Part shown: piece after piece, positions 5,470 through 49,612 of the stretch
How the letters are laid out: each line of letters opens with the position of its first letter
Position numbering within the stretch: the stretch's first letter is position 1
NCBI RefSeq assembly: GCF_029889805.1
Contig: NZ_JARANT010000008.1
Coordinates: forward strand, 1-49,612
Source: Halorubrum sp. Boch-26
GTDB lineage: Archaea; Halobacteriota; Halobacteria; Halobacteriales; Haloferacaceae
Direction of reading: 5' to 3'
DNA: 49,612 bases
Program-made: the position numbers and the translations under genes
Notes under the pieces: model-generated
What the model was told of the DNA's origin: nothing
The model's input: only the letters and a program-made list of their open reading frames with translations
Database searches by the model: none

Positions 5470-6390
5470 ATGGAGACGCGACGCGCGCTGCTCGTCGACG
5501 CGTTCACGGACGAACCGCTGGCCGGGAACGTCGCCGGCGTGCTGCCGGACGCCGCCGGCCTGAGCGACGGCCGCATGGGGAAGATCGCCGCCGAGATCGG
5601 CGCCTCCGAGACCGCGTTCCTCTTCGACGCGGGCGACGGCGCCGACGAGCGGGTCCGTTACTTCACCCCCTCCACGGAGGTCGATCTCTGCGGCCACGCC
5701 ACGATCGCGAGCTACGCCGCGCTGTACGCGGCGGGGACGGTCGAGGCCGGCGACCGCACCCTCCGGACGAACGTCGGCGACCTCTCGATTCGGATCGACG
5801 ACGACGGCACCGTCTGGATGCGCCAGAACCCGCCGACGGTCGAGCCGGTGGACGAGGCCGAACTCGACGCCGACCGCCTCGGCGACGCGCTCGGGATCGA
5901 CCCCGCGGCCCTCCGGGACGTGGGCGCCGACCTCCCCGTCGCCGTCGCCTCGACCGGGCTCCCGTGGCTCGTCGTCCCCGTCAACTTCCTGGAGCGTCTC
6001 GGGGAGGCAGAGCCCGACGCGGCCGCCGTCGAGGCGATCTCGAACGCCCACGACGCCGCCGGGATCTACGCGTTCACGTTCGACGCGATCGGCGCGGAGT
6101 CGACGCTCCACGGCCGGGCGTTCGCGCCCGCGGTCGGTGTCGCCGAGGACCCCGTGACGGGCACGGCGAGCGGCGCGGTCGGGGCGTACCTCCGGGCCGT
6201 CGACGCGTTCGACGGCGACCTCCCGGAGGAGCTCCGGTTCGAACAGGGCCACTTCCTCGACCGCCCCGGGCACGTCAGGGTGCGAGTCGAGGGCGACGAC
6301 GTCCGGGTCGGCGGCCGCGCGGTCGTCTCGACCGAAGGCGAGCTGACGCTGCCGGCGGAGGAGGACGGCGACGACATCATCGAGGCGTGA
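5470..6390 (+). CDS. PhzF-family isomerase-like protein
   Basis: This 306-residue protein matches the PhzF/DAP-epimerase fold of two similar alpha/beta barrels. The N-terminal VDAFTDEPLAGN is the family signature. Glu47 in ASETAFL is the expected catalytic acid/base. FTPSTEVDLCGHAT (residues 65-78) and EDPVTGTASGAVGAYL in the second half mark the cleft between the two lobes. Most archaeal members have no known substrate, and there are no phenazine genes nearby, so a phenazine role is not implied. The start ATG follows a 153-base divergent spacer shared with the phosphodiesterase gene. Confidence 0.9.
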   Translation: METRRALLVDAFTDEPLAGNVAGVLPDAAGLSDGRMGKIAAEIGASETAFLFDAGDGADERVRYFTPSTEVDLCGHATIASYAALYAAGTVEAGDRTLRTNVGDLSIRIDDDGTVWMRQNPPTVEPVDEAELDADRLGDALGIDPAALRDVGADLPVAVASTGLPWLVVPVNFLERLGEAEPDAAAVEAISNAHDAAGIYAFTFDAIGAESTLHGRAFAPAVGVAEDPVTGTASGAVGAYLRAVDAFDGDLPEELRFEQGHFLDRPGHVRVRVEGDDVRVGGRAVVSTEGELTLPAEEDGDDIIEA

Positions 6391-6494
6391 GCGCGCTCGG
6401 TCCCCGTGTCGCGACGGTCCGTCAATCACCGGAACGCGCCGCGGCCTCCGTCGTCGAGCCGAACGTTTAGGCGGTCCCGGGGCGTACGGTCTGT

Positions 6495-6689
6495 ATGGAG
6501 TTTGACCTCCCACGCGCGGCGGCGCTGCTGGTACTGATCGTCGCGGTCGGCACCGCGGGACTGATCGGAAGCGGGATGATGCCGCTACAGACCACGCTGA
6601 TGATGGTCGCCCCGTCGATGCTCCTCTTCGGGGCGATCGCGTTCGCCATCGGCGTGAAACACGGTCAGTTCCGGGCGACACACGCCTGA
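6495..6689 (+). CDS. Small two-helix membrane protein
   Basis: This 64-residue protein (MEFDLPRAAALLVL...) has two hydrophobic segments at about residues 8-27 and 31-54, with a short GMMPLQT turn and a basic, soluble tail. The first helix has a G-T-A-G-L-I-G-S-G pattern typical of helix packing. I recall similar small membrane proteins annotated as a haloarchaeal DUF (7333 or near), but I cannot confirm the number. It stands alone, about 100 bases after the PhzF-like gene and about 90 bases before the exchanger gene, on the same strand. Function unknown. Confidence 0.7.
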   Translation: MEFDLPRAAALLVLIVAVGTAGLIGSGMMPLQTTLMMVAPSMLLFGAIAFAIGVKHGQFRATHA

Positions 6690-6780
6690 TCGGGCTCGCA
6701 GCGACCACGCCTCCGCGGGGCTGCGCCCGCGCCGGCCGGAACCACGACGCTTTTTAAAACGGGACCGACAAGCGGGAGCC

Positions 6781-7731
6781 GTGTTGATCGGGTCGCCGCT
6801 CACCGAACTGCTGCTCCTCGTCGGCGGTATCGTGCTCCTGTACGCGGGCGCGGAGCTGCTCGTCAAGGGCGCCAGCGACTTGGCGCTCGCCGTCGGCCTG
6901 AAGGCGTCGACTGTCGGGGTCACCGTCATCGCGTTCGCGACGACCGCCCCCGAGCTGTTCGTCTCTCTCCTCGGCGCCGTGACGGTGTCGACGGACGTGG
7001 GACTGGGGACGATCCTCGGGTCGAACATCGCCAACATCGGGCTCGTGCTGGGCGTCTCCGCGCTGATTCGCCCCCTCGACGTCTCCGACACGGTGTTCGA
7101 GCGTCACGTCCCGTTCATGGTCCTCGCCGCGGTGCTGCTCGTCGCGCTCGGCTGGAACGGCCGCATCGGCCGACCCGCCGGGCTCCTCCTGCTCGGAGTG
7201 CTCGTCGCGTTCACCGTCGTGATTATGCGACGCATCCGCCGAACGCAGTCCGGCATCTCCACCGCGGAGCGCGCGGAGATGCCGGACGCGAGCCTCCGGG
7301 ACGTCGCCGCCGTGGTCGGCGGTATCGTCGCGCTGGTGCTCGGCTCGCGGTGGCTCATCGACGGGGGGGAGTCGCTCCTCTCCGCGGCCGGCTTCTCCGA
7401 CATCTTCATCGGGCTCACGGTGCTCGCGCTCGGTACCTCGCTCCCCGAGCTGGCGGCGAGCCTCGTCGCCGCCGTCCGCGGCGAGGCGGAGTTCAGCGTC
7501 GGCAACGTCGTTGGCTCGAACATCTACAACGTCCTCGCCGTCCTCGGGATCGTCGCGATCGTCCGACCTATCGGCGTGAGCCCCGGCGTCCGCGTATTCG
7601 AGTTCCCGGCGCTGATCGGCTTCACCGCCCTCCTCGTTGGACTCATGTATCGCGACAGGCGGCTATCGCGCGTCGACGGCGCGGTCCTCATCGCGGGGTA
7701 CGGCGCGTTCGCGTACCTGCTGTTCCCGTGA
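6781..7731 (+). CDS. Calcium/sodium antiporter (CaCA family)
   Basis: This 316-residue integral membrane protein starts at a GTG (a TTG follows as the next codon). It shows the internal duplication of the cation/Ca2+ exchanger superfamily. In the first half are TAPELFVS and GSNIANIGLVLG (near residue 80), and in the second half TSLPELAASL and GSNIYNVLAVLG (near residue 245). These alpha-repeat motifs carry the ion-binding Glu and Asn residues. About ten hydrophobic segments are visible. The expected role is Na+- or H+-driven Ca2+ extrusion. The gene has no obvious operon partner; the next gene begins 244 bases further on, after duplicated A/T elements. Confidence 0.92.
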   Translation: MLIGSPLTELLLLVGGIVLLYAGAELLVKGASDLALAVGLKASTVGVTVIAFATTAPELFVSLLGAVTVSTDVGLGTILGSNIANIGLVLGVSALIRPLDVSDTVFERHVPFMVLAAVLLVALGWNGRIGRPAGLLLLGVLVAFTVVIMRRIRRTQSGISTAERAEMPDASLRDVAAVVGGIVALVLGSRWLIDGGESLLSAAGFSDIFIGLTVLALGTSLPELAASLVAAVRGEAEFSVGNVVGSNIYNVLAVLGIVAIVRPIGVSPGVRVFEFPALIGFTALLVGLMYRDRRLSRVDGAVLIAGYGAFAYLLFP

Positions 7732-7803
7732 CGAGGCTGGAGAGGGGTGAGGTGCGGTCGCTGTGCCGGGCGGGGCTTTGGCGGTGTTCACCGCAGATCC
7801 GCG

Positions 7804-7918
7804 ATCGATAATTTATAAGAGAGCGGCTGGGGCTTTGAAGCAATTTCCCGGCGCTCCGAGGGCGATAGCTTATAAATAACCGACTGCGGCTTCGGCCACG
7901 ACCGCGACCAATTTCCCG
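7804..7918. repeat. Two diverged copies of an intergenic element
   Basis: Two similar blocks lie in tandem at 7804-7850 and 7861-7918. Each reads CGATA, an A/T core with TTATAA, a CTG-x-GGCTT segment, and ends in CAATTTCCCG. The second copy has about ten extra bases before its end block. Both carry a TATA-like core, and they precede the GTG of dtdA by 58 bases or more. Confidence 0.6.
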
Positions 7919-7975
7919 ACACCGTCTCGCGCTCGAACCGACGCCTATTCGGCGGCCCGACTCCGACCGGAACCC

Positions 7976-9541
7976 GTGATAGCGATCGTCGTTAGCCGGG
8001 CCGACAGCGCCTCTGAACACATCGGCGAGCGCCTGCTCGCGGTCGGGGACTGGGAGCGGCGCGAGGACGAAACGCGCTCCGACGCCGCGGGCGGCGGGAC
8101 CTATTACCGGACCGAGGGATTCGAGCTCCGGGAGTTCGACGACCTCCACATCGAACTCGACGACCCAGCGGCCGCGTTCGGCGGCGGGGGGGACCGCGGA
8201 GGCGCTGGAGACGCCGCCGGAGACGCGGCGCCCGACTTCCTCGTCTTCGTCTCCAGACACTCCGGGGAGACGGGCCGGCTCCTGACCGCCCACGTCACCG
8301 GGAACTTCGGCCCGGCGCCGTACGGCGGCGAGCCGGAGACGCTCGCGACCGCCGCTCCCGGCGCGGAGAAGCGCGTCGTCGAGGCCTTGGCGACGCGCGC
8401 TCCCGATGGGTACGACGTCGGTATCGAGTGCACGCACCACGGACCGACGAGCGTCTCCGTCCCCTCGCTGTTCGTCGAGCTCGGCTCCGACGAGCCGCAG
8501 TGGGAGGACTCGGGGGCGGCCGAGGCGGTCGCCCGGGCGGTCCTCGACCTACGCGGGACAGGCCCGGATCTCGTGGGTGACGGAGCTGCCGACGCGACCG
8601 ACGGGGCGGTGCAGGCGACCGACGGGGCGGTGCAGGCGACCGACGGGGCGGTGCAGGCGACCGACGGGGCAGCGCAGGTGACTGACGGGACAGCGCAGGC
8701 GACCGACGAGTCGTCCCGCCACGACGACTCCCCCCGCCACGTCGTCGGCTTCGGCGGCGGCCACTACGCGCCGCGGTTCACTCGGATCGTCCGCGACACC
8801 GCGTGGGCCGTGGGGCACGTCGGCGCCGACTGGGCGCTCGGCGAGATGGGCGCGCCCGAGGCGAACCGCGAGACGATCGATCAGGCGTTCGCGCGCAGCC
8901 GCGCCGACCGCGCCGTGATCGAGGGCGATAGACCCGACCTCGCCGCAGTCGTCGAGGCGCTCGGCCACCGCGTCGTGAGCGAGACGTGGGTCCGCGAGGT
9001 CGGCGACCGCCCGCTCCCGCTGATCGAGCGGCTGGAGGCCGATCTCGCGACCGTCGACGAGGGGCTCCGGTTCGGCGAGATCCTCCCCGCGGAGTCGGGG
9101 GCCGGCGCGATCCGGATCCGCGAGCTCCCCGACGCGCTCCTGTCGCGGGCGCAGGGGATCGACCCGGAAGCGACCCGCGAGGCGGTCGCGTCGAACGCCG
9201 TCGCCTTCGACACGGAGCAGGCCGGCACCCGCGCGGCGGGAGCGGCCGCCTTCGACGATCGCGCGGACGCTCCCGGCTACGGGGACCTCGTCGACGACCT
9301 CGCGGCGGTGCTCGCGGAGAGATACGACGCGGTCGAGGCGGGAGACGACGCGGTCGTCGCCCGCGAGGCGGCATTCGACCCCGATCTCGCGAGGGACCGC
9401 GGCGTTCCCGAGGGTCCGGCGTTCGGCCGCCTCGCCGACGGAGAGACCATCGAGGCCGACGGCGAGACGGTGGCCCCGGAGGACGTGTCGCGGTCGCGAA
9501 CTGACCGGTTCCCGATCGACGGTAAGGACACGGAAGAGTGA
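7976..9541 (+). CDS. dtdA: D-aminoacyl-tRNA deacylase (archaeal type)
   Basis: This 521-residue protein hydrolyses D-amino acids from mischarged tRNA and so protects translation. The GTG start gives MIAIVVSRADSASEHIGERL, the usual N-terminus of archaeal/plant DTD2-type enzymes. LVFVSRHSGETG-like sequence (FVSRHSGE near residue 95) and the FGGGHYAPRFT motif near residue 260 are family hallmarks. Between them, residues about 205-245 form a low-complexity linker built from a seven-residue unit, (A/V)TDGxxQ, encoded by tandem repeats. The C-terminal 120 residues end with GVPEGPAFGRL, an element common in haloarchaeal homologues. The protein is longer than the roughly 250-450 residues usual for the family because of the linker and tail. 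The stop codon lies inside a tandem duplication. Confidence 0.9.
   Translation: MIAIVVSRADSASEHIGERLLAVGDWERREDETRSDAAGGGTYYRTEGFELREFDDLHIELDDPAAAFGGGGDRGGAGDAAGDAAPDFLVFVSRHSGETGRLLTAHVTGNFGPAPYGGEPETLATAAPGAEKRVVEALATRAPDGYDVGIECTHHGPTSVSVPSLFVELGSDEPQWEDSGAAEAVARAVLDLRGTGPDLVGDGAADATDGAVQATDGAVQATDGAVQATDGAAQVTDGTAQATDESSRHDDSPRHVVGFGGGHYAPRFTRIVRDTAWAVGHVGADWALGEMGAPEANRETIDQAFARSRADRAVIEGDRPDLAAVVEALGHRVVSETWVREVGDRPLPLIERLEADLATVDEGLRFGEILPAESGAGAIRIRELPDALLSRAQGIDPEATREAVASNAVAFDTEQAGTRAAGAAAFDDRADAPGYGDLVDDLAAVLAERYDAVEAGDDAVVAREAAFDPDLARDRGVPEGPAFGRLADGETIEADGETVAPEDVSRSRTDRFPIDGKDTEE
8594..8710 (+). repeat. 21-bp in-frame tandem repeat inside dtdA
   Basis: There are five full copies and one partial copy of a 21-bp unit beginning GCGACCGACGGG, starting at 8594, 8615, 8636, 8657, 8678 and 8699. 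The first three copies are identical; the last ones have drifted. Each unit encodes seven residues. Confidence 0.95.
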
Positions 9542-36643: not shown

Positions 36644-39517
36644 ATGAGCTCCGCATCCAACGGCGTTCTCGACACCGCCGTGATCGTCGTGGTCGGCGAG
36701 ACGGCGTGGACGACCGCCTACGCCGACGCCCTCAGAGATCGGTCCGACGCGACTGTCCGCCCGGTCCCGACGGCGTCGGCGGCGCTGGACGCGCTCGGAG
36801 AGTCGGCGGTCGACTGCGTGGTGACCGACCACGTGCTCTCGGAGCTCACGGGCGTCGAACTCGTTCGCCGGATACGCGACCGGACGGTCTCGCTGCCGGT
36901 CGTCTTGGGGACGGCGGACGGAAGCGAGGCGATCGCCAGCGAGGCGGTCGGCGCCGGGGTGACCGACTACCTCGCGGTCGGCGAGCCCCTCACGGACGCC
37001 GTCGACGACGCCCTGTGGCGGACCGAGCGGGCGCTCCGGGAGGCCCGGCGGTCCGCGAGTCGGCGCGAGCGCGCGCGGCAGTTCGACGCTTCCTTCCACG
37101 ACACCAGATCGGCGACGTGGGTCCTCGATCCCGACGGCGGGCTGACGCGCGTCAATCAGGCCGCTCGCGACATGGTCGACGCCGACGTCGACGCCGTCGT
37201 CGGTGACTCGTTCTGGACGCTCCCGTGGTGGTCCGAGGGGGATCGACCGAGAGCGGACATCCGCCGGCTCGTCGACGTCGCGCGGGGCGGGGAGTTCGGA
37301 CACGCCGTCGTCGTCCGGGACGCGGCCGACGAGCGGGTGCTGGAGCTCTCCGTGCGACCGGTCACCGACGAGCGGGGAGACCTGGCCTCGATCGTCGTGG
37401 ACAGCGCCGACATCACCGACCGGGTCGCCCTCGAGCGGGAGCTCCGCCGGTCCGAGAAGCTCCACCGCGTCACGCTCAACAACATGACCGACACCGTCCT
37501 GATGACCGACGAGGACGGCGAGTACACGTACGTCTGTCCCAACGCCCACTTCATCTTCGGATACACCGCCGAGGAGATCCGCGGGCTGGGGACCATCGAG
37601 GACCTGCTCGGCGAGGACCTCTTCGACCGCGAGGAGCTGGCCGACGAGGGCGTGCTGAAGAACATCGAGACCACGGCCACGGACAAGGCAGGCCGCGAGC
37701 ACACGCTGTTGGTGAACGTCCGGGAGGTGTCCATCGAGGACGGGACGCTGCTGTACAGCTGTCGGGACGTGACGAAGCGCAAGCAGCGCGAACGGGCGCT
37801 CGCCACCCTCCAGGGAACCGCGCGGGACTTCCTGTACGCCGAGACTCACCGGGAGATCGCCCGCCACGTCGTCGACGACACGCCGGACGTCTTGGGTCTC
37901 GACGCCGGCGCCGTCTACCTCTTCGACGCCGACGACACACGGCTCCGACCCGCCGCCCGCTCGCGGGAGATGCGGGACGCGCACGGACCGCTACCGCCCG
38001 TGCACGCGGACGGCCGCGACCTCACGAGCCACAGCTTCGTCGAGAACGAGGCGCTGTTCTTCGACGACGTTCACGACGCCGACCGGCTCGCGGACCGCGC
38101 CACCGGCCTCCGAAGCGCGGCGTACATTCCCCTCGGAAACCACGGCGTGTTCGTCGCCGGCTCGATGGCGGTCGGCGCCTTCGACGACGTGACGCGGGAG
38201 CTCGCCGACCTCCTCGCGGCGACCGCGGAGGCGGCCCTCGATCGGGTCGACCGGGAGTCCCAGCTCCGCGAACAGGACCGCGAGCTCCAGCGACAGAACG
38301 ACCGGCTCTCCGCGCTCGACCGGATAAACGAGACCATTCGCGAGATCGACCACGGGATCGTGCAGTCCGAGACCCGCGAGGAGATCGACCACACGGTCTG
38401 CGAGCGGCTGACCGCCGACGGGCGCTTTCGGCTCGCGTGGATCGGCGCCCGCGACGACGCGGGCGACGCGGTGACGCCGCGGGCGTGGGCGGGGACCGAT
38501 CGGGGCTACCTCGACGCGCAGTCGTTCCCCGTCTCCCCCGAGGACGTCGAACCAGCGGGTCGGACCGCGGCGACGGGCGACGTGACCCTCGTTTCGAACG
38601 TCGCGGCCGACCTCCGCGCAGCGCCGTGGCGCACGGACGCGATCTCGCGTGACCTGCTCTCCGCGTTGAGCGTCCCGCTCGCGTACAACGACCTCTCGTA
38701 CGGCGTGTTGACCGTGTACGCGGAGACCCCGGACGCGTTCGACGAGACCGTTCGGGCCGTGATCGCGGAGCTGGGAGAGACGATCGCCGCGGCGATCAGC
38801 GCCGGCGAGCGCAAGCGCGCGCTGCTCACGACCTCGATGACCCGCGTCGAGTACGCGGTCCGCGACCCGTCGTTCCTGCTCACGCAGTTGGCCGAGGCCG
38901 CCGACTGCACGATCGCCTACGAGGGCGGCGTCCAGCAGACCGCGAGCGGCAACTACGTGTTCCTCACCGTCGAGGACGCGTCGCTCGATGCCGTCGTCGA
39001 CGCGGCGGACGACCTCGTGGCCGTCGAGGCCGTTCGGCGGATCCGCGGGGGCGATACCGGGGGCGTGCTGCGGCTCCGGCTGGCCGAGCCGTTCCTCGCC
39101 GCGGAGTTGGCGGACCACGGCGCGGTCCTCCGGAACACGACGGCGACCGGCGAGGAGACGGAGCTGGTCGTCGACGTTCCCGGCGGCGTCGAGCACAGAC
39201 ACGTCACGCAGCTCGTCCGCGAGCGGTTCGTCGACGTCGACCTCGAGTCGAAGCAGACTCGCGAGCAGGCGTCCGAACACGGATTCTACGCGTCGGTCCT
39301 CGACCGGCTGACCGACAGACAGCTCGAGGTCCTGGAGACGGCGTACTACAGCGGGTTCTTCGAATCGCCGCGGAAGGCGACCGGCGAAACCGTCGCGGAC
39401 TCGCTGGACATCTCTCCGCAGGCGTTCTACCAGCACATCCGCACCGCCCAGCGGAAGCTGTTCGCGGCGCTGATCGACGACCACGCGCCGGTGGCCGCTC
39501 GCCGCGTCGACCGCTGA
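36644..39517 (+). CDS. Bat-like multidomain sensor and HTH transcription regulator
   Basis: This 957-residue soluble protein contains, in order: a receiver-like domain (about 10-125) with Asp62 in VVTDHVLS but without the usual acidic pair (GET at 18-20) and without the conserved Lys; two PAS domains (about 145-265 and 275-385, FHDTRSATWVLDPDGG and YVCPNAHFIFGYTAEEI); two GAF domains (about 400-530 and 560-720); and a C-terminal bacterio-opsin activator region with a HTH_10 domain (about 895-945, LTDRQLEVLETAYYSGFFESPR). Proteins of this kind sense small ligands, redox state or light and act on transcription. The target genes are unknown. A response-regulator receiver that cannot be normally phosphorylated is likely. 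Confidence 0.9.
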   Translation: MSSASNGVLDTAVIVVVGETAWTTAYADALRDRSDATVRPVPTASAALDALGESAVDCVVTDHVLSELTGVELVRRIRDRTVSLPVVLGTADGSEAIASEAVGAGVTDYLAVGEPLTDAVDDALWRTERALREARRSASRRERARQFDASFHDTRSATWVLDPDGGLTRVNQAARDMVDADVDAVVGDSFWTLPWWSEGDRPRADIRRLVDVARGGEFGHAVVVRDAADERVLELSVRPVTDERGDLASIVVDSADITDRVALERELRRSEKLHRVTLNNMTDTVLMTDEDGEYTYVCPNAHFIFGYTAEEIRGLGTIEDLLGEDLFDREELADEGVLKNIETTATDKAGREHTLLVNVREVSIEDGTLLYSCRDVTKRKQRERALATLQGTARDFLYAETHREIARHVVDDTPDVLGLDAGAVYLFDADDTRLRPAARSREMRDAHGPLPPVHADGRDLTSHSFVENEALFFDDVHDADRLADRATGLRSAAYIPLGNHGVFVAGSMAVGAFDDVTRELADLLAATAEAALDRVDRESQLREQDRELQRQNDRLSALDRINETIREIDHGIVQSETREEIDHTVCERLTADGRFRLAWIGARDDAGDAVTPRAWAGTDRGYLDAQSFPVSPEDVEPAGRTAATGDVTLVSNVAADLRAAPWRTDAISRDLLSALSVPLAYNDLSYGVLTVYAETPDAFDETVRAVIAELGETIAAAISAGERKRALLTTSMTRVEYAVRDPSFLLTQLAEAADCTIAYEGGVQQTASGNYVFLTVEDASLDAVVDAADDLVAVEAVRRIRGGDTGGVLRLRLAEPFLAAELADHGAVLRNTTATGEETELVVDVPGGVEHRHVTQLVRERFVDVDLESKQTREQASEHGFYASVLDRLTDRQLEVLETAYYSGFFESPRKATGETVADSLDISPQAFYQHIRTAQRKLFAALIDDHAPVAARRVDR

Positions 39518-39669: not shown

Positions 39670-39813
39670 ATGAGGGACGTCGACCAGAGATCGGCCGAGG
39701 AATCGCCCTACGAGTGCTTCGACTGCGGAAACGTCGTGCTCGCCGAGAACAATCCCGGCCGGTGTCCCGACTGCGGCGGTGAGATGCGGAATCGACACAC
39801 GCCGCTCGAGTGA
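39670..39813 (+). CDS. Rubrerythrin-like zinc-ribbon miniprotein
   Basis: This 47-residue protein ([20 protein letters not shown]...) has two CxxC knuckles, CFDCG (Cys16 and 19) and CPDCGG (Cys32 and 35), the spacing of a rubredoxin-like zinc ribbon. Many haloarchaea carry such single-ribbon proteins annotated rubrerythrin-like. The TGA ends 2 bases before the ATG of glutamate dehydrogenase, so both are very likely on one mRNA. The role is unknown; binding to a partner protein or nucleic acid is plausible. Confidence 0.8.
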
Positions 39814-39815
39814 GA

Positions 39816-41123
39816 ATGGCGCGGACACCGACGACGACCCACGACGAGACGCGAGCGGAGAGTCGGGAGGAACCGAACGAGCCTGAATCGGCGCTGGAGA
39901 CGGCGCGTCGACAGCTCCGGCACGCCGCCGAACACCTCGATATCGATCGGAACACCGTCGAACGGCTCAGCTATCCGAAGACGGTCCACGAGGTCACGGT
40001 CCCGATCGAGCGCGAGAACGGCGAGGTAAAGGTGTACACGGGGTACCGCGCGCAACACGACAGCGTTCGCGGCCCGTATAAGGGAGGGCTCCGGTATCAC
40101 CCCGACGTGACGCGCGAGGAGTGTGTCGGCCTCGGCATGTGGATGACGTGGAAGTGCGCCGTGATGGACATCCCGTTCGGCGGCGCGAAGGGCGGTATCG
40201 CGGTGAATCCGAAGGACCTGAGCGACGACGAAAAGGAGCGGCTGACGCGCCGGTTCACCGACGAGATCCGGACCGCCATCGGCCCCACGAAGGACATCCC
40301 CGCGCCGGACATGGGGACGGACCCGCAGACGATGGCGTGGCTGATGGACGCCTACTCCATGCAGGAGGGCGAGACGATCCCGGGCGTGGTGACGGGGAAG
40401 CCGCCGGTCGTCGGCGGGAGCGAGGGCCGCGACGAGGCGCCGGGCCGGAGCGTCGCGATCGTCGCCCGCGAGGCGATCGATTACTACGGGAAGGCGATCG
40501 AAGAGACGTCGGTCGCGGTGCAGGGGTTCGGGAGCGTCGGGGCGAACGCCGCGACGCTGCTCGACGACTGGGGAGCGAACGTCGTGGCCGTGAGCGACGT
40601 CAACGGCGGGGTCCACGACCCGGACGGGCTGGACACCCACGCGATCCCCTCTCACCGCGAGGAGCCGGAGGCGGTGATGGCCCACGAGGCGCCGGAGACG
40701 GTGACGAACGACGAGCTGTTGGCGCTCGATGTCGACGTGGTGATCCCGGCGGCGATCGGGAACGTCCTGACGGCGGACAACGCCGGCGACGTCGCGGCCG
40801 ACATCGTCATCGAGGGTGCCAACGGCCCGACGACGAGCGCGGCGAGCGAGATCTTCGCCGAGCGCGACGTGCCGGTGATCCCGGACATCTTGGCCAACGC
40901 GGGCGGCGTGACGGTGAGCTACTTCGAGTGGCTCCAGGACATCAACCGCCGCGCGTGGTCGCTCGAACGCGTCAACGACGAGCTGGAGACGGAGATGCTC
41001 GACGCGTGGGGAGACGTGCGCGAGGCGTTCGAAGCGCGGGACGTGACGTGGCGCGACGCGGCGTACATCGTCGCGCTGTCACGGGTCGCCGAGGCCCACG
41101 AGACGCGCGGTCTGTGGCCCTGA
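39816..41123 (+). CDS. gdhB: Glutamate dehydrogenase
   Basis: This 435-residue hexameric-type enzyme interconverts glutamate and 2-oxoglutarate plus ammonia with NAD(P). I use the ATG at 39816 rather than the GTG at 39810. [11 protein letters not shown] (residues 87-96), PFGGAKGGI with catalytic Lys125, and [14 protein letters not shown] are the active-site blocks. The Rossmann motif [10 protein letters not shown] is near residue 237. [11 protein letters not shown] and [12 protein letters not shown] complete the family set. The acidic N-terminal extension of about 25 residues is common in haloarchaea. The symbol is given by similarity; several paralogues occur in haloarchaea. Confidence 0.94.
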
Positions 41124-41423
41124 GCGGGTCGCGCCCGTCGCCGACCCGACAGCAACGGTCCCGAACCGACCGGACTCCTCGCGGATCGCCCTCGACGATC
41201 CGACGGACGCGAGAATCCCGAGCGTTGAGTGTACCGCGACGGACCGGGCCGAAATCACCGGGACCGCGTGCTCCGGGTGAGGTCGTCCGACGAGCCGACG
41301 AACGGTGGCGGGCGAGAGACCCTCCCCCGTTTCGAGCGCGTGTCACCGCGCCGTTGTCCGGGGATTATCAGTCGCGGGTTTTTGCGAGACACCTTTTTCA
41401 ACGGTTGCGGCGTTCCCGTACGC
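41124..41423. other. 300-base spacer between gdh and the pilus operon
   Basis: I see no gene on either strand. The last part holds GATTATCA and two T-runs (41379-41383 and 41393-41397) ahead of the pilB ATG at 41424. These could combine a promoter for the pilus operon with termination from gdh. No repeat or hairpin of note. Confidence 0.4.
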
Positions 41424-44400
41424 ATGGTAACCGAGGACGCCGAGCGTTCGCCTCTCTCGCCCGACGAGACGGCGGGATCGCCGGCGTCCGATCCCCCGGT
41501 GTCGGTGGGGCGGTACTCGTGGCGCTCGTTCCTCCGCGAGCGCGGCCGCGACGCCGCCGCGGCGGCGCTGTACGCTGACATCGGTGAGGAACCGGTCGTC
41601 CCGGCGACCGCCGTCGCCGCGCACGCCGAGGCGGGGGCTGACCGCGTCGTTCGCGCGACCGGGGTCGACGAGCCGTTCGTGGCCGACGGCGACACCGCGG
41701 TCCCCGGTCAGGGGACGCCGGACGCGGGAACGCTCGTGGTCGGCGCCGCCCACGCCGTGCTCAGCGGCGACGCCGTCGTCCCCGACGGCACGTCGACGGC
41801 GGCGGTGGACTCCGGGGCGTTCGCGTCGGAGCCGGACCCGGCCTCGACGACGGAGGAGGACGGGCCCGAAGGAGCGACGGAGGAAAGCGACGCGGACGAA
41901 TCGGGAACGTCCGCGGACGCGACCGACGAGGGAGACGGTCCCGCGGTCGCTAGCGGCGGCGTGACCGGAACGGTCGCTGTCGCCGCCGCCGACGTCGAGA
42001 CCGTCCCGAGGCGCGCGCCGACGAGTGAAGAGTGGGACCGAGCGGGCGTCGACCCGAGCGAGTCCCTCGGGTTCGACCCGTCGGAGACGGGGTACCGGGT
42101 CCGGGCGGCCGCGGCCGTCGGCGACGCCCTCTGGGACCTCTGTTCGGCTCGATACGACCTCTACGAGGTGCCGGTGCTCAAGGGGTACTACGCGTGGGAC
42201 GACTACCGCGAGGAGTACTTCCTCGACGAGGAGGGAGCGCCGCCGACCGACGAGGACGACGAGCCGCTGGCGTTCACCCACGAGGACAAGACCGAGGCGC
42301 TCGGGTTCGACCCCGACCGGACCGAGGAGCTGCTGGGTGCGGGCGGGAGCGCGGCCGCCGAGCTCGCCGACTTGGTCGACGAGCGCACCGTGGACGTGAA
42401 CCCCGATATCGACGAGGACGCGTTCTTCTCGACGGCCGCCGGCGACGCCACCCTCGCGAACCGCTACGACTTGGAGAAGGCGGTGCCGATACCGAAGAAG
42501 GCCCACTTCCGCGAGATCGAGCGGTACTGGGTGAACGAGCCGTACGCGTTCGTGATCGTCTTCCGCTCGACGAAGGAGAACGAGGTGAAGTACTACGCGG
42601 TCCAGCCGTACCGGACCGAGATCGAGACGGACCTCGTCGAGTTCCTGACCGGGAAGCTCCGGACCTCGATCAAGTACGCCGACGAGGCGATCGCGGGCGG
42701 CGACGAGGCGTTCCGTGAGGACGTGATCGTCGACGAGGCGCTCACGCTCCTCGACCGGTACGACCTCTACGAGCGCGAGGACGACGGTCGCGGGGTCGTC
42801 GAGGACCTCGTCGACGACGTGGTCGACCGGTTCGGGTTCGACGTGACGGAGGGCATCGCCGCTCGGATCACGGAGTCGCTCGGGTACGAGGCGCCGATCG
42901 AATCGAGTTCGACATCGCCCTCGAAGATACTCGCCCGACCCGAGCCCGCGGTGCTCGCAGAGGACTCGGAGACGCTCTCGGAGCATCAGGTCGAGAAGCT
43001 GCTGTACTACCTCAAGCGCGACTTCATCGGCTACGAGCGCATCGATCCGATCAAGTACGACATCAACGTCGAGGACATCTCCTGTGACGGGTACGACTCC
43101 CCCGTCTTCGTCTACCACTCCGACTACGAGCAGATCATCACCAACGTCTACCACGAGACCGACGAGCTCGACGACTTCGTGGTGAAGCTCGCGCAGCGCT
43201 CCGGGAAGGGGATCTCGAAGCGACGCCCGCAGGTGGACGCCACCCTCCCGGACGGCTCCCGCGCCCAGCTCACGCTCGGCCGCGAGGTGTCGGACCACGG
43301 GACCAACTACACCATCCGGCAGTTCAACGACGTCCCCTTCACCCCGATCGACCTGATCAACTGGAAGACGTTCTCGCTCGACGAGATGGCCTTCCTCTGG
43401 CTCTCGATCGAGAACCACAAGAGCCTGATATTCGCCGGCGGTACCGCCTCCGGGAAGACGACGAGCCTGAACGCGGTCTCTCTCTTTATCCCCTCGAACG
43501 CGAAGATCGTCTCCATCGAGGACACCCGCGAGGTCGAGCTCCCGCAGCGCAACTGGATCGCCTCCGTCACCCGCCCCTCCTTCTCCGACGACGACAAGGG
43601 CGACATCGACGAGTTCGACTTATTGGAGGCCGCGCTCCGCCAGCGCCCGGACTACATCGTGATGGGCGAGATCCGCGGCGAGGAGGGTCGGACCGCCTTC
43701 CAAGTCATGTCGACCGGCCACACCACGTACACGACGTTCCACGCCGACACCGTCGGCGAGGTGCTCAAGCGGTTCACCACGGAACCGATCAACGTCTCGA
43801 AGACGATGTTCACGGCCCTCGATCTGGTCTCCGTCCAGACGTCGACGCGGGTGCAGGGCAAGAAGGTACGCCGGAACAAGTCGCTGACTGAGATCAACCA
43901 CTACGACGCCGAGAACGACGAGATCAACGTCCAAGACGTGTTCCAGTGGCAGGCGGAGACCGACGAGTTCCTCCAGATGGGCGACTCGAACACCCTCGAA
44001 GACATCATGTTCGACCGCGGGTGGAGCCGCGAGACGTTGGACGAGGAGCTCCGGAAGCGCAGAATCGTGTTAGCGTACCTCATCGACCGCGGGCTCAACA
44101 GCTACGCGCAGGTGGCCGCGACGTTCCAAGCGTTCATCAACGACCCCGAGACGGTGCTCGCGCTGATGGCCAACGAGGAGCTCGAACGCTCGCTGGAGGA
44201 CCTCCGCGAGATGGAGTCGGTCCTCATCAACGTCGACCGCGACAAGGAGGAGATGGTGCCTCGCCCGGAGCCGGACGAGGCGGGCCGCGCGGAGGTCGAG
44301 CGGATCCTCGCCGACGCCGAGGACCTCTTCGCGGAGTACCGCGGTCGGATGCCCGACTCCGTCGCCGACGCGCTGCTCGACGTGGCCCCCTCTCCCGACG

Positions 44401-44975
44401 TCGAGGCGTCGCCCGACGCCGCCCGCGAGACGCTCGCGGAGACGGCCCGCGAGGCGGCGGCGCTCCACCCCGAGGCGCTCGGCCCCCGACCCCCCGACAC
44501 CGGTACCGACGACGAGGCCGCGGCGGCCGACGGGACGCCGACCGATCCCTCACCGTCCGAACCGGCCGCCCGCGACGGCTTCGAGGGAGTCGCAAACGCG
44601 TCCCCCATCGACGACGGTCCCGGCGTCGGCCCGAGCGACCGGACCTCGGACGCGAACGGGACGGAACCGACGAACGGCTCGGTGCCGACTGATCGGCAGT
44701 CAGGCGCGACGGACGCAGATTCGGGCGGCGGGGACGCCGAGATCGACTTCGACGAGCCGTTCGAGGAGGGGATCGACGTGTTGGACCCGGGCCGCGAGGG
44801 GAACGAGACGCCCGACGTCGCTCCCGGCGGAGACGCTGAGACGCCCGACGTCGCTCCCGACGAGAGCGACGAGGTCGGGGAGGAGTTCGAAGACGGGGCC
44901 GAAGAAGGGAGCGCCTCCGACGACGACATCGACGACTGGGGGTTCGGCACGGTCGAATCTCCGGAGGAGCGGTAG
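41424..44975 (+). CDS. pilB: Type IV pilus assembly ATPase (PilB/GspE family)
   Basis: This is 1183 residues from MVTEDAERSPLSPDE at 41424; the frame opens earlier but that part lies in the spacer. Residues 1-200 are partly low-complexity and acidic. A conserved N-domain (about 210-640) with DYREEYFLDEE and FSTAAGDATLANRYD leads to the secretion-ATPase domain: GGTASGKTT Walker A at about 672-680, HSTFHAD-like TTFHAD box, and Walker B region DYIVMGEIRGEEG at about 743. The C-terminal 180 residues are acidic, Pro/Thr-rich and contain the repeat ETPDVAP. The enzyme powers assembly of pili in the membrane. It heads a tight operon with pilC and four small membrane proteins. Confidence 0.93.
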   Translation: MVTEDAERSPLSPDETAGSPASDPPVSVGRYSWRSFLRERGRDAAAAALYADIGEEPVVPATAVAAHAEAGADRVVRATGVDEPFVADGDTAVPGQGTPDAGTLVVGAAHAVLSGDAVVPDGTSTAAVDSGAFASEPDPASTTEEDGPEGATEESDADESGTSADATDEGDGPAVASGGVTGTVAVAAADVETVPRRAPTSEEWDRAGVDPSESLGFDPSETGYRVRAAAAVGDALWDLCSARYDLYEVPVLKGYYAWDDYREEYFLDEEGAPPTDEDDEPLAFTHEDKTEALGFDPDRTEELLGAGGSAAAELADLVDERTVDVNPDIDEDAFFSTAAGDATLANRYDLEKAVPIPKKAHFREIERYWVNEPYAFVIVFRSTKENEVKYYAVQPYRTEIETDLVEFLTGKLRTSIKYADEAIAGGDEAFREDVIVDEALTLLDRYDLYEREDDGRGVVEDLVDDVVDRFGFDVTEGIAARITESLGYEAPIESSSTSPSKILARPEPAVLAEDSETLSEHQVEKLLYYLKRDFIGYERIDPIKYDINVEDISCDGYDSPVFVYHSDYEQIITNVYHETDELDDFVVKLAQRSGKGISKRRPQVDATLPDGSRAQLTLGREVSDHGTNYTIRQFNDVPFTPIDLINWKTFSLDEMAFLWLSIENHKSLIFAGGTASGKTTSLNAVSLFIPSNAKIVSIEDTREVELPQRNWIASVTRPSFSDDDKGDIDEFDLLEAALRQRPDYIVMGEIRGEEGRTAFQVMSTGHTTYTTFHADTVGEVLKRFTTEPINVSKTMFTALDLVSVQTSTRVQGKKVRRNKSLTEINHYDAENDEINVQDVFQWQAETDEFLQMGDSNTLEDIMFDRGWSRETLDEELRKRRIVLAYLIDRGLNSYAQVAATFQAFINDPETVLALMANEELERSLEDLREMESVLINVDRDKEEMVPRPEPDEAGRAEVERILADAEDLFAEYRGRMPDSVADALLDVAPSPDVEASPDAARETLAETAREAAALHPEALGPRPPDTGTDDEAAAADGTPTDPSPSEPAARDGFEGVANASPIDDGPGVGPSDRTSDANGTEPTNGSVPTDRQSGATDADSGGGDAEIDFDEPFEEGIDVLDPGREGNETPDVAPGGDAETPDVAPDESDEVGEEFEDGAEEGSASDDDIDDWGFGTVESPEER
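44811..44861 (+). repeat. 21-bp direct repeat in the acidic tail of pilB
   Basis: The block starting GAGACGCCCGACGTCGCTCC occurs twice with a period of 30 bases, both copies in frame, encoding ETPDVAP twice in the C-terminal tail. Confidence 0.8.
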
Positions 44976-45002
44976 CGCCGTGTCCCCGACGAGGTGGGTC
45001 GC

Positions 45003-47045
45003 GTGAGCCTCGATACGGGAGTCGGCGACGGATCCGCCGACGGCGACGTCCTCGCGGAGCTGTTCTACCCCGTCTTCGAGCTGCTGTTCGCCCCCGACGG
45101 CGACTTCGTCGGCGATGTCGAGCGCAAGCTCGCGGAGGCCCGGATGCCGGATCAGGTGGAGATGTACGTCTCGCGGGCCCTCGGCATCGGGCTGCTCGTC
45201 GGTGGGCTTCTCTGGGCGTTCGGCACGCTGATCGGCTACGGCGTGTTCTCGCTCGGGCTGATCGACTCGAGTGCGCTGTCGCTCGGTATGCCGGCGCCCA
45301 CGCCGGCGATTCAGGAGCTGTTGCGGTCGCTGGTCGTGCCGACCGCGGTGCTGATAAGCGGACTCGTCTTCGGCTCGATCGGATTCGCGCTCGGGTTCGG
45401 CACGTTCGTCGCGATCCCCTACTCGCGGGCGTCATCGCGGAAACGCGAGATCAACCTCCTGCTCGCGGACTCCGTCTCGTTCATGTACGCGCTCTCTGTG
45501 GGAGGGCTCAACCAGCTGGAGATCCTCCGCGCGATGGCGACGGCGGAGGACACCTACGGCGAGGTCTCCCGCGAGTTCCAGAGCATCGTCAACGAGACGG
45601 AGTACTTCGGCACCGACTACCGGAACGCGATCCGCCAGCAGTCGATGGAGACGCCGTCCGACGAGCTCTCGCAGTTCCTCGCCGACATGCTCTCCATCGT
45701 CAACTCCGGCGGCGACATGGAGAGCTTCCTGAAGGACAAAAAAGAAAAGCACCTCCGCACGTCGAAACAGGAGCGCGAGATGACCTTAGAGACGCTGGAG
45801 CTGTTCGGCGAGATGTACATGACGCTCTCGCTGTTCCCCCTCCTCCTGATCATCATCCTCGTCATCATGGGCATGATGGGCGAGGCCGACGACCGGCTGC
45901 TGTACGCGACGGTGTACGTCCTGATCCCGCTGACGGGAGTCGGCTTCCTCGTGCTCGTCTCCACCGTCAAGCAGGACGAGCCCGGCGACGGCTACCTCCG
46001 CCCCGACGGCGGCAGCGAGCGGCTCAGGCAGACGAGTCGGGAGGGACTCCTCCACTTCGGACTGATCGAGGGGTTCGTCGGTCGCTTCGGCGTCTTCGAC
46101 CGGATCCGCGACCGCGAGGGGGCGTTCAAGACGAAAGAGATCGTCTCGGCGCCGCACCTGTTCTTACGGGACAACCCGCTGTACACGCTGGCCCTGACCG
46201 TGCCGACCGCGGTCGCGATCGTCGCGATCACCGCGCTCACCGGCAACGCGCCGACGACCTTCGACGGGTGGGTCGCCCGCCCGGTCTGGTCGGCGTTCGT
46301 CTGGATCTACGTCCCGGCGTACCTCGTAATGGTCCCCCTCGCGGCCTTCCACGAGTGGAGCCAGCGGTCGAAGCGGGCGATCACGGGCAAGCTCTCCGAG
46401 AGCCTCCGGAAGCTCTCCTCGGCGAACGACACCGGCCAGACGCTGCTGGAGTCGGTCGAGACGGTCTCGGCGACCTCCACCGGCCAGCTCGCCGAGGAGT
46501 TCGAGGTGATCCACGCGAAGGTGAACTACGGGATGAGCCTCCGAGACGCCATGGTCGAGTTCAACAACACGTACGCGGTCCCCCGGCTCGCCCGGACGGT
46601 GAAGCTCATCTCGGAGGCCCAGGAGGCGTCCTCGCAGATCACGGACGTGTTGACGACGGCGGCTCAGGCCTCGGAGAACCAAGACGACATCGAGCGCGAA
46701 CGGATCTCCCGCACCCGGATGCAGGTGGCGATCATCGTGATGACGTACGTCACGCTGCTCGGCGTGATGGCGATCCTCCAGACGCAGTTCGTCGACGTGA
46801 TGGGCGATCTCTCGTCACAGGGGGAGTCCGCCGGGGGCGCGGCCGCGGGCGGCGGGCCGAGCTTCGGCGGCGGCGGCGTCGAGCCGGACGTGCTCTCGTT
46901 GCTGTTCTTCCACGCCGTGACCCTGCAGGCGGTGCTCTCCGGGTTCATCAGCGGTTACATCCGGAACGCCGACATTATCTCCGGCGTCAAGTTCGCGGTG
47001 GTCCTGATGACGCTCGCGCTGGGGGTGTGGATCTATGTGGGGTGA
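45003..47045 (+). CDS. pilC: Type IV pilus assembly platform protein (PilC/TadC family)
   Basis: This is a 680-residue integral membrane protein; starts at GTG 45003 (MSLDTGVGDG) or GTG 44994 are both possible. Two T2SF domains are present. The first, residues about 140-300, has REINLLLADSVSFMYALSVGG, NETEYFGTDYRNAI and KKEKHLRTSKQEREM. The second, about 445-600, has LSESLRKLSSANDTGQTLLESVE and LRDAMVEFNNTYAVPRLAR. Eight to nine transmembrane segments flank them. This is the archaeal-type duplicated PilC that works with PilB. The stop overlaps the next gene by 11 bases. Confidence 0.92.
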   Translation: MSLDTGVGDGSADGDVLAELFYPVFELLFAPDGDFVGDVERKLAEARMPDQVEMYVSRALGIGLLVGGLLWAFGTLIGYGVFSLGLIDSSALSLGMPAPTPAIQELLRSLVVPTAVLISGLVFGSIGFALGFGTFVAIPYSRASSRKREINLLLADSVSFMYALSVGGLNQLEILRAMATAEDTYGEVSREFQSIVNETEYFGTDYRNAIRQQSMETPSDELSQFLADMLSIVNSGGDMESFLKDKKEKHLRTSKQEREMTLETLELFGEMYMTLSLFPLLLIIILVIMGMMGEADDRLLYATVYVLIPLTGVGFLVLVSTVKQDEPGDGYLRPDGGSERLRQTSREGLLHFGLIEGFVGRFGVFDRIRDREGAFKTKEIVSAPHLFLRDNPLYTLALTVPTAVAIVAITALTGNAPTTFDGWVARPVWSAFVWIYVPAYLVMVPLAAFHEWSQRSKRAITGKLSESLRKLSSANDTGQTLLESVETVSATSTGQLAEEFEVIHAKVNYGMSLRDAMVEFNNTYAVPRLARTVKLISEAQEASSQITDVLTTAAQASENQDDIERERISRTRMQVAIIVMTYVTLLGVMAILQTQFVDVMGDLSSQGESAGGAAAGGGPSFGGGGVEPDVLSLLFFHAVTLQAVLSGFISGYIRNADIISGVKFAVVLMTLALGVWIYVG

Positions 47046-47616
47046 CCGGCGCGCGGCCACGGCCGGACTGCGCTCCGCGAGCGACCGCGCTCAGACCCCG
47101 ATCGACTTCGCCGTCGGCGCGAGCGTGTTCCTGTTGACGCTCGGGTTCGTGATCGCCTTCGTGCCGACGGTGTTCGACCCCTTCGCGGGCGCCGCGACCG
47201 CCTCGCCGGCAGTGAGCGACCGCGTCGCCGCGGGGCTCGTCGGCGACCTCCTCGCCGCGTCACCGACCGAGCCCGCGGTGTTGTCACCCGCGTGTACGGC
47301 CGCGTACTTCGAGGACGACGGGGGCAACGCGACCCTCGCCGGCGCGGCCGGCTGTCCCCCCGGGATCACGAACGACACGGCCGCGGAGTTCGGGCTCGAC
47401 GACGACGTGCTCGTCGTCGTCCACGCGATGGACGAGGCGGACCCGGTCGGTAACGCCTCGACCGTCACGGTCGACACGGCGTACGGCACGCACGCGGTCG
47501 ACCTCCGCCGCAGCACGAGGGATCCGGTCCGCGTCGACCGCGGGGGCGTCAGCGTCTCGCAGCGACTCGTCTCCATCGAGGGGACGCAGCACCGGCTCAC
47601 GGTGTGGGTGTGGTGA
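47035..47616 (+). CDS. Prepilin-like single-pass protein 1 (pilus operon)
   Basis: This 193-residue protein has a basic N-terminus (MWGDRRAATAGLRSAS), then DRAQTPIDF and a hydrophobic helix at about residues 21-45, then a polar outside domain with two Cys and several N-x-S/T sites. DR-A|Q directly before the helix fits a class III signal cut by the prepilin peptidase PibD. It overlaps pilC by 11 bases. I recall a haloarchaeal DUF (7287) for this type but am not certain. A minor pilin or pilus-assembly accessory role is inferred. Confidence 0.8.
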   Translation: MWGDRRAATAGLRSASDRAQTPIDFAVGASVFLLTLGFVIAFVPTVFDPFAGAATASPAVSDRVAAGLVGDLLAASPTEPAVLSPACTAAYFEDDGGNATLAGAAGCPPGITNDTAAEFGLDDDVLVVVHAMDEADPVGNASTVTVDTAYGTHAVDLRRSTRDPVRVDRGGVSVSQRLVSIEGTQHRLTVWVW

Positions 47617-47618
47617 CG

Positions 47619-48224
47619 ATGCCCTCGAGCGAGGACCGCGCGCAGGCGCACACGCTGGAGGCGTTCGCGGCGGCGATCCTGATCGTCGCCGGGCTCGCCT
47701 TCGCGCTGCAGGCGACCGCGGTGACGCCGCTGTCGGCCAGCACGTCGAACCAGCACTTGGAGAACCAGCAGCGGGCGGTCGCGAACGACATCTTGGAGAC
47801 GAGCGCGGCGAACGGCGATCTCCGGGACGCGGTGCTGCGCTGGGACCCGGTGAACGAGACGTTCACCGACGGCCGAAGCCCGAGCTACTTCACCGGTGGC
47901 GGCCCACCGAACGGGTTCGGCGCGGCGCTGAACGAGAGCTTCGGCGACCGGCGGATCGCCTTCAACGTCCACATTCGACACGGCTCGGACAACGGGGCCG
48001 AGACGACGCTGGTGAGCATGGGATCGCCGAGCGACAACGCCGTGACGGCGACGCGGACGGTCGTCGTGACCGACGACGCGAACCTGACCGCGCCGGGATA
48101 CGATGACACGACACTGGGAGCGCTCTCGGACGGGACGAAAGACGGCGAGTTCTACGCGGCAGACGCCGCCGCCGGCGCGATATACGACCGACTGGAGGTG
48201 CGCATCGTCGTATGGCAGCTTTAA
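47619..48224 (+). CDS. Prepilin-like single-pass protein 2 (pilus operon)
   Basis: This is 201 residues from the ATG at 47619 (MPSSEDRAQAHTLEAF), two bases after the previous stop; further upstream in-frame starts lie inside the previous gene. DRA|QAHTLEAFAAAILIVAGLAFAL is a short n-region, a PibD-like site and a pilin-type hydrophobic helix with Glu near mature position 6, like the +5 Glu of type IV pilins. The outside domain (about 40-201) is polar with glycosylation sequons. It overlaps the next gene by 13 bases. The role is inferred from context. Confidence 0.82.
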   Translation: MPSSEDRAQAHTLEAFAAAILIVAGLAFALQATAVTPLSASTSNQHLENQQRAVANDILETSAANGDLRDAVLRWDPVNETFTDGRSPSYFTGGGPPNGFGAALNESFGDRRIAFNVHIRHGSDNGAETTLVSMGSPSDNAVTATRTVVVTDDANLTAPGYDDTTLGALSDGTKDGEFYAADAAAGAIYDRLEVRIVVWQL

Positions 48225-49294
48225 CGTCCGGCTCGTCCGACGGCGACGGCTCCCGCGGAGGTAGCGCCCGCGGCGATAGCGCCCGCGGCAGTAGCGCCTG
48301 CGGCAGTAGCGCCCGCGACGCGGAGCGCTCCCGCGACGCGGACCGCTCCCGCGACGGGCGGCGGTTCCGCGACGCGGACCGCGGTCAGCTCCTGTTGATC
48401 TCCGGGCTGGTCGTGGCCGTTTCGCTCGTGGCGCTCGTGGTGCTGTTGAACGCGAGTATCTACAGCGAGAACGTCGCGACCCGCGGAGTCGAGGCCGCCG
48501 ACGGGGAGGCCTTGGAGGTCCGCGCGGCCGCGGTCGAGGAGACCGGAAAGCTGATCGACGGGACGAATCGGAACCGCCCCGGAGACCACGATGCGGCGGT
48601 CACGGCGGTTGAGAACGGCACTGCCGACCTCGACGCGTACCTCGCCCGAGCGTACGCCGATCGCGGCGGGGTGACTAACGTCTCGCTCGTCCCTTCGTCG
48701 ATCCGCCGGGGGAGCTACGTGACGGGGAGCCTCACCGCGAACGGTACCGGGGACTCGAACGCGACCCTCGCCGCCGGCGCCGCCCGGACGCGCGGATTCG
48801 TCGTCGAGGTCGACCCGGATTCGCTCGCGTCCACGGACGCCGCCGGGGCGGCGTCGGGCGCCTTTCGTATCGAGTTCGGCGACACGACCAACGAGACGCG
48901 GGAGGTGTACGTGTACGAGAACGCGACCGACGGCGACGTCACCGTCGCCGTCGGCGAGAACGGGAGCGACCCGACCGTCGTCTGCTCGACGCCGTCCGGC
49001 GACCGCGTCGGCGTCGACCTGACCGGTGAGAGGGTCGGTGACGAGCGCTGTCCGGGGCTCTGGGCGGCAAGCGCCGGGGAGCTGGCGGGCCCGCACGACG
49101 TGTCTATGGAACGAACCGACGCGGCGAACGGCACCGCGGTCCTGACTGCGCTCCCCGATTCGGGCGACGCCGTCGGTTCGGATCACTCCGCGACCCCCGC
49201 GGTGTACGATACGGAGATCGACTTCAGCTACCGGACCGCGGAGCTCCGGTTCGACACCGCGATCCGGGTCGCGCCGGGTGAGCCCGATGCGTGA
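48212..49294 (+). CDS. Prepilin-like single-pass protein 3 (pilus operon)
   Basis: This is a 360-residue protein. Residues about 8-58 are low-complexity Ser/Ala/Arg/Asp/Gly (SARG, SARD, DADRSRD units), then DRG|QLLLISG and a hydrophobic helix at about 60-82. The rest is a large polar domain with N-glycosylation sites and two Cys. A shorter start further in is possible, which would remove the repetitive leader and leave a compact class III signal; I keep the ATG overlapping the previous stop because coupling fits the operon. Similar haloarchaeal proteins are in pilus clusters (a DUF7261-like family by recollection). Confidence 0.75.
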   Translation: MAALTSGSSDGDGSRGGSARGDSARGSSACGSSARDAERSRDADRSRDGRRFRDADRGQLLLISGLVVAVSLVALVVLLNASIYSENVATRGVEAADGEALEVRAAAVEETGKLIDGTNRNRPGDHDAAVTAVENGTADLDAYLARAYADRGGVTNVSLVPSSIRRGSYVTGSLTANGTGDSNATLAAGAARTRGFVVEVDPDSLASTDAAGAASGAFRIEFGDTTNETREVYVYENATDGDVTVAVGENGSDPTVVCSTPSGDRVGVDLTGERVGDERCPGLWAASAGELAGPHDVSMERTDAANGTAVLTALPDSGDAVGSDHSATPAVYDTEIDFSYRTAELRFDTAIRVAPGEPDA

Positions 49295-49612
49295 GCGCGG
49301 GGCGGCGGACGGCGGCGGCGGCCGCTTCCGCGACGACGACCGCGCCGTGAGCGTCACCGTCGGATACGTCCTGACGCTCGCGATCGGCGCGGTACTGCTC
49401 TCCGGGGTCGTCATCGGGATCGGCGGCGTCGTCGACTCGCAGTCCGAGCGGGTCGTCAGGGGCGACCTCGCCGTGGTCGGCCAGACCGCCGTCGCGAACC
49501 TCGAGAGCGCGGACCGGCTCGCCCGCGCGGCGGAGGTCGACCGCCCGGCCGACGCCGACCCGCCGACCGGCGCCCTCGACGTCGCCCAGCCCGACCGGCA
49601 CACCGGCCGCCC
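49287..49612 (+). CDS. Prepilin-like single-pass protein 4, 5' part only (pilus operon)
   Basis: The ATG at 49287 overlaps the previous stop by 8 bases; the frame stays open to the window edge (about 108 residues). MRERGAADGGGGRFRDDDRA|VSVTVGYVLTLAIGAVLLSGVVI resembles the RAVSPVIG-VIL start of archaeal pilins (DUF1628 type), with DRA|V as the peptidase-like site. The visible domain after the helix has VDSQSERVVRGDLAVVGQ. It is the fourth such protein in the operon. The C-terminus and downstream genes are not seen. Confidence 0.78.
   Translation, partial: MRERGAADGGGGRFRDDDRAVSVTVGYVLTLAIGAVLLSGVVIGIGGVVDSQSERVVRGDLAVVGQTAVANLESADRLARAAEVDRPADADPPTGALDVAQPDRHTGR

Follow-up and report, generated by a model that had tools for sequence, protein, structure and literature searches.

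The closest described relative of the locus reported here is the PilB4-C4 locus of Haloferax volcanii (HVO_1160), one of the euryarchaeal clade 2 pili. Makarova et al. (2016; PMC4858521) described it as an ATPase with extra terminal domains accompanied by its own set of pilins, three of which recur in the loci of subclade 4C. These authors predicted that one member of the set, arCOG03926, is the major pilin and suggested that the remaining ones may contribute to the structure of the filament. FlaFind-positive pilins are co-regulated with pilB4-C4 (PMC4371748). Detection of the PilB4 protein was confined to GMM-grown cells (PMC7305310), and in Haloferax gibbonsii infected with a virus the expression of pilB4-C4 is reduced (PMC12542753). 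Among bacterial systems, Tad pili use PilB and PilC of the archaeal type; haloarchaea have no outer membrane to hold a secretin.

We analysed a stretch of 49,612 nucleotides from Halorubrum sp. Boch-26 (hereafter the window), which is an entire contig of a draft assembly (177 contigs, 95% complete); what we say of this genome refers to that assembly. At 41229..44975, on the plus strand, the window encodes a PilB4-type VirB11/T2SSE assembly ATPase of 1248 residues with long N- and C-terminal extensions (Pfam T2SSE 1e-30, PilB3_C 1e-9), one of the six T2SSE matches above cut-off in the genome. It adjoins a gene for a PilC/TadC-type membrane platform protein (44994..47045, plus strand; Pfam T2SSF 1e-26). 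An ATPase with extra terminal domains next to PilC/TadC is the mark of a PilB4-type locus, and the kind of system is already known. The extended PilB, the adjacent PilC and the presence of several FlaFind-positive pilins, one of them common to other pil loci, are all shared with the PilB4-C4 and clade 2 loci (PMC4858521), and we find no real difference in kind from the H. volcanii locus. This tie is drawn from the published description together with the matches of DUF7288, DUF7261, DUF7266 and DUF7289 in H. volcanii. Upstream of the pil operon lies a gene for a bacterio-opsin activator-type protein with Response-regulator/PAS/GAF/BAT/HTH_10 domains (36644-39517), and a glutamate dehydrogenase gene (39810-41123) stands between the two.

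An earlier note on this DNA had singled out the four genes after pilC as a mostly uncharacterised set. This is right as to function: their Pfam families (DUF7287, DUF7288, DUF7261 and DUF7266) are of unknown function, and their names were not found in the literature searched. A PilB4 pilin set had nevertheless already been predicted (PMC4858521, PMC4371748). In the same literature we found no description of the ordered cassette, of the residue code or of the grafted modules presented below. As far as this literature shows, the additions made here are the order kept across the phylum, the residue code, the grafted modules and the cassette that stands alone in distant orders.

Prepilin genes downstream of pilC

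All four open reading frames lie on the plus strand and run into one another, each sharing 8-17 nucleotides with the preceding gene, beginning with pilC, which ends at 47045. The first (47035..47616) encodes a DUF7287 protein (PF23958, 1.4e-39) with a predicted processing site DRA↓Q at 47083..47094, a predicted mature start at Gln 47092 and Asp at +5 (the arrow marks the predicted cut; sites are from a six-frame motif scan). The second (47604..48224, with an alternative ATG start possible at 47619) encodes a DUF7288 protein (PF23959, 2.8e-60), with DRA↓Q at 47634..47645, a predicted mature start at Gln 47643 and Glu at +6. The third (48212..49294) belongs to DUF7261 (PF23922, 9.5e-15), with DRG↓Q at 48377..48388 and a predicted mature start at Gln 48386. 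The fourth (49278..49612), present in the window as its 5' part only, belongs to DUF7266 (PF23928, 1.9e-16); it starts with GTG 49278 or ATG 49287 and has DRA↓V at 49338..49349, with a predicted mature start at Val 49347. Read with one more residue, the four sites are SDRA↓Q, EDRA↓Q, ADRG↓Q and DDRA↓V, each followed by a hydrophobic helix.

All 34 matches to DR(A/G)(Q/V) that the window contains, counted over its six reading frames, were checked for a following helix, the chance rate estimated from composition being about 1.7e-4 per position. A helix follows 4 of the 34, and these are exactly the four genes after pilC. The motif might be a coincidence and the four products ordinary, uncut membrane proteins anchored by their N-termini, given that DR and acidic or Arg-rich leaders are common in haloarchaeal proteins and that the window holds 30 other matches. 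We consider this highly improbable, since none of those 30 precedes a helix, the genes adjoin pilB and pilC, and positions -1 and +1 hardly vary among the 60+ relatives of each family.

The leaders were expected to be short. This is so for the first, second and fourth genes (19, 8 or 13, and 20 or 23 residues, respectively) and fails for the third, whose sole in-frame start, ATG 48212, gives an unusually long, low-complexity, SARG-like leader of 58 residues (48212..48385), against a median of 17 in relatives. Of note, the segment 48212-48385 reads as a repetitive SARGDSARGSSACGSSARD leader, longer than in the relatives compared.

Profile-profile comparison bore out the claim that the outside domains share no evident similarity, with all ectodomain probabilities below 3%. 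A clear relationship was found only between the N-terminal helices of DUF7266 and of DUF7289, a fifth family described below (83%); that between the helices of DUF7287 and DUF7288 is weak (32%). AlphaFold alignments consisted of the window and four further loci (L041-L044) only, and their shallowness yielded weak models: helices followed by strands for DUF7288 (pLDDT 69) and a helix at residues 2-63 followed by strands for DUF7261 (pLDDT 53), neither of them good enough to establish a pilin fold. The weak DUF7288 model (pLDDT 69) matched no fold in the PDB, and a PDB sequence search for solved relatives gave no useful match. A relationship to the TadE pilins of Tad systems was tried and rejected, as Pfam TadE matched neither the window proteins (E up to 1) nor the distant relatives (E up to 10).

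The DUF7266 gene is cut by the end of the contig. Its remainder was found at the start of another contig, C116 (positions 1-312 of our locus L009), which overlaps the end of the window by 135 bases at 93% identity. No second copy of DUF7266 above cut-off was found elsewhere in the draft genome, and C116 therefore very probably continues the pil locus. The last 40 or so bases of the overlap (window 49478-49612 against C116 1-137) diverge, pointing to variation between strains or to a break in the assembly within the DUF7266 gene. After the remainder of DUF7266, C116 encodes a DUF7289 pilin with the start DDRG↓VSDVVGYIL, weakly similar to Pilin_N (E 7e-5), which by description would fit arCOG02911, the shared signature pilin of clade 2 loci. 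The set is thus one of five, DUF7287, DUF7288, DUF7261, DUF7266 and DUF7289 (Pfam, C116 included), rather than of four as first proposed. Further along C116, on the minus strand, a divergent protein of 659 residues (L009 1171-3150) joins a DUF7289 pilin N-terminus, PDRA↓QSEVIGAVLLLG, to a DUF7305 domain, so that another modular pilin lies alongside the operon.

Conservation of the cassette and of the processing site

Gene order was compared in 44 haloarchaeal loci, comprising 43 DUF7288 loci with sufficient flank and the window. The order 7287-7288-7261-7266-7289 is kept in nearly all of them; DUF7261 was undetected in one (L049) and DUF7289 in another (L058). DUF7288 is also widespread beyond the haloarchaea within the same phylum, and the same order recurs in 19 informative distant loci from other orders of the phylum, with the exceptions of L127, which is rearranged, L129 and L130, in which DUF7261 was undetected, and L136, which ends before DUF7289. 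Two distant loci contain a second cassette, whole or partial. Judged from these comparisons, the four genes are real and ancient pilus subunits that form part of a five-gene set.

The suggestion that the set is dedicated to the adjacent PilB and PilC is correct for 38 of the 44 haloarchaeal loci, where PilB-PilC directly precede the cassette. It does not hold for the other 6, nor for 18 of the 19 distant loci, from which pilB/pilC are absent within the 14 kb fetched (only L140 has one). In addition, haloarchaea have another kind of pil locus, of PilB1 type (subclade 4C), that contains three of these families: there DUF7289, DUF7266 and DUF7261-type pilins adjoin PilB-PilC, a sharing consistent with the published account (PMC4858521). 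The PilB1-type locus differs in its order, PilB-PilC-7289-7266-...-7261, and DUF7287 and DUF7288 were undetected there. In PilB1-type loci L103-L112 the DUF7261 Pfam model fits the paralogues far better than it fits the window's copy.

Site residues were taken from the aligned columns of each family. Without exception, position -1 holds A or G, in haloarchaeal and distant loci alike. In haloarchaea, +1 is Gln in DUF7287 (44/44), DUF7288 (45/45) and DUF7261 (44/44) and Val in DUF7266 (41/45) and DUF7289 (44/44), and Arg occupies -2 in about 89-98% of the aligned sites. In the distant loci the Arg at -2 is lost, whereas -1 stays A or G and +1 is mostly kept (Gln in 21/21 DUF7288 and 17/19 DUF7261 sequences). 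This indicates that A or G before the cut and Q or V after it are the ancient constraint, and that DR is a haloarchaeal habit. The site is conserved in orthologues, over 44-45 haloarchaeal and about 19 distant loci, and the lack of conservation that the earlier note had named as a refutation is not observed. All four genes of the window also have the pattern sought by a FlaFind-type rule (charged -2, G/A at -1, then a hydrophobic helix), as do, at the aligned site, 41/44 relatives in DUF7287, 44/45 in DUF7288, 40/44 in DUF7261, 42/45 in DUF7266 and 43/44 in DUF7289.

The draft genome holds one prepilin peptidase gene (Peptidase_A24, contig C104, 7.9e-11). Together with a site conserved over haloarchaeal and distant loci, this upholds the proposed class III signals, and the interpretation of the four open reading frames as archaeal type IV prepilins with a predicted class III signal is strongly supported. 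The Epd pilins of Methanococcus maripaludis are likewise prepilins with Gln at +1, encoded near pilus biosynthesis genes and several of them minor (PMC4371748). They are processed by a second peptidase, EppA, whereas our search of the genome analysed here yielded a single prepilin peptidase.

The residues after the site distinguish the families further. DUF7287 has an invariant Asp at +5 (65/65; 44/44 haloarchaeal and 21/21 distant) and DUF7288 an invariant Glu at +6 (66/66; 45/45 and 21/21), with Thr at +4 in 21/21 distant DUF7288 sequences; both acids are close to the position of the bacterial Glu5. No acid occurs at +1 to +6 in the aligned DUF7261 sites, haloarchaeal or distant, and the window's DUF7261 protein has none in its first ten mature residues. 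DUF7266 lacks an acid near its start in haloarchaea and has Glu at +6 in 13/20 distant members.

A candidate priming and tip complex

The families differ in how much their size varies. The mature DUF7288 protein is steady in haloarchaea (185-227 residues), and that of DUF7261 ranges from about 120 to 1359 residues, with 58 in one early-ending frame. Most haloarchaeal DUF7261 proteins have about 300 residues, and three long ones (749, 1199 and 1359) carry von Willebrand A (vWA) domains in which the DxSxS/DxTxS motif and the Asp motif downstream of it can be recognised. Another haloarchaeal DUF7261 (L059) bears a bactofilin-like module and a distant one (L125) an Ig-like module (Big_7); a recognised adhesin module is absent from the window's own DUF7261. 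In three distant loci DUF7266 is the large protein, with about 770-800 residues and PKD and vWA domains. Among the loci with vWA grafts (L065, L066, L069, L128, L140 and L141) we saw none in which DUF7261 and DUF7266 are both modular.

We think it rather probable that the five prepilins of this PilB4-type locus are cut by PibD, assembled by PilB and PilC and work as a priming and tip complex. The four open reading frames would be the first four of the five co-encoded prepilins, each inserted in the membrane through its N-terminal helix and cut after A or G by the single prepilin peptidase, after which PilB and PilC would assemble the cut pilins through that helix. DUF7287, with Asp at +5, and DUF7288, with Glu at +6, could make a Glu5-like contact with the N-terminus of the neighbouring subunit. 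DUF7261, with its acid-free start, would cap the tip and, in some lineages, display a vWA, Ig-like or bactofilin-like module that resembles an adhesin. The bulk subunit may be DUF7289, DUF7266 or PilA-type pilins encoded elsewhere. Major pilins acting in trans are possible because the genome has six T2SSE-type ATPase genes over cut-off and four other Pilin_N proteins.

The placing of DUF7261 at the end is by analogy with bacteria. GspHIJK, PilHIJK and Streptococcus sanguinis PilABC are likewise small co-encoded sets of pilins, with modular vWA-bearing members, and in bacterial tip complexes, too, all but one or a few of the pilins have an acid close to residue 5, and one lacks it. Such complexes are capped by the subunit without Glu5 (reviewed in PMC10191384), and in structural modelling a vWA-bearing minor pilin was compatible solely with a position at the tip (PMC8179133). 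No sequence similarity to bacterial minor pilins was found with Pfam or with PDB sequence and fold searches, however, and the acid of DUF7288 is at +6 and not +5. Many archaeal pilins, moreover, have no Glu5 (PMC4371748), and in this organism a missing acid is no distinguishing mark of DUF7261, because haloarchaeal DUF7266 is also acid-free. The role as minor pilins or a tip complex, proposed in the earlier note, is plausible and appears best supported for DUF7261, in view of its missing acid, variable size and occasional vWA graft; the probable function of the five-gene set as a whole is to form or cap the tip of a fibre on the cell surface.

A different arrangement, in which the five pilins together supply all the structural subunits of a single filament, with DUF7266 (or DUF7289) as major pilin and the others interspersed along the shaft, is less likely but deserves serious consideration. 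It agrees with the prediction of a dedicated major pilin, arCOG03926, in the PilB4 locus and the suggestion that the rest are structural (PMC4858521), and with the resemblance of DUF7289 to Pilin_N and the helix that it shares with DUF7266. Where DUF7266 reaches the size of a PKD- and vWA-bearing protein, as in the three distant loci, it is unlikely to be a bulk subunit.

It is also conceivable, if improbable, that no extended pilus is made and that the products form a short pseudopilus-like or membrane-bound machine for secretion, DNA transfer or sensing. We found no PilB4-dependent pili described in the literature consulted, and an H. volcanii pilB3-C3 deletion strain has no surface pili despite expression of pilB4 and pilC4 (PMC4371748). 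TadG/CpaL, the vWA-bearing pilin-like protein among the Tad components TadE/TadF/TadG (CpaJ/K/L), provides a comparison, as vWA pilins of the Tad type, CpaL among them, are tied to surface sensing (PMC12607857). The adhesin-like modules, on the other hand, suit an exposed filament, and the immediate neighbours of the locus include neither a secretion substrate nor a gene for DNA uptake.

Returning to the priming and tip complex, we put forward more tentatively, as a proposition somewhat less likely than not, that the set is the equivalent in archaea of the tip complex that minor pilins form in bacteria. It would be an ancient five-gene cassette, kept in order across a phylum and separable from its ATPase, with a signature for each kind of subunit (Asp+5, Glu+6, no acid, or a Val-Ser start) and with DUF7261 and, elsewhere, DUF7266 as interchangeable carriers that present vWA, PKD, Ig or bactofilin modules at the tip. 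If true, archaea and bacteria would share a design in which one acid-free member of a minor pilin set presents grafted adhesins. The cassette gives defined candidates for the start of assembly and for the tip, and Asp+5 of DUF7287, Glu+6 of DUF7288 and the module-carrying subunit are handles for mutation in H. volcanii.

Elsewhere in the same genome, on the minus strand of contig C120 (L120), two adjacent open reading frames of more than 500 codons each (5772-7367 and 7437-9020) are further candidates for large prepilins, with the starts DRA↓QSTTVGTILLV and RRG↓QSVVIGTVILF.
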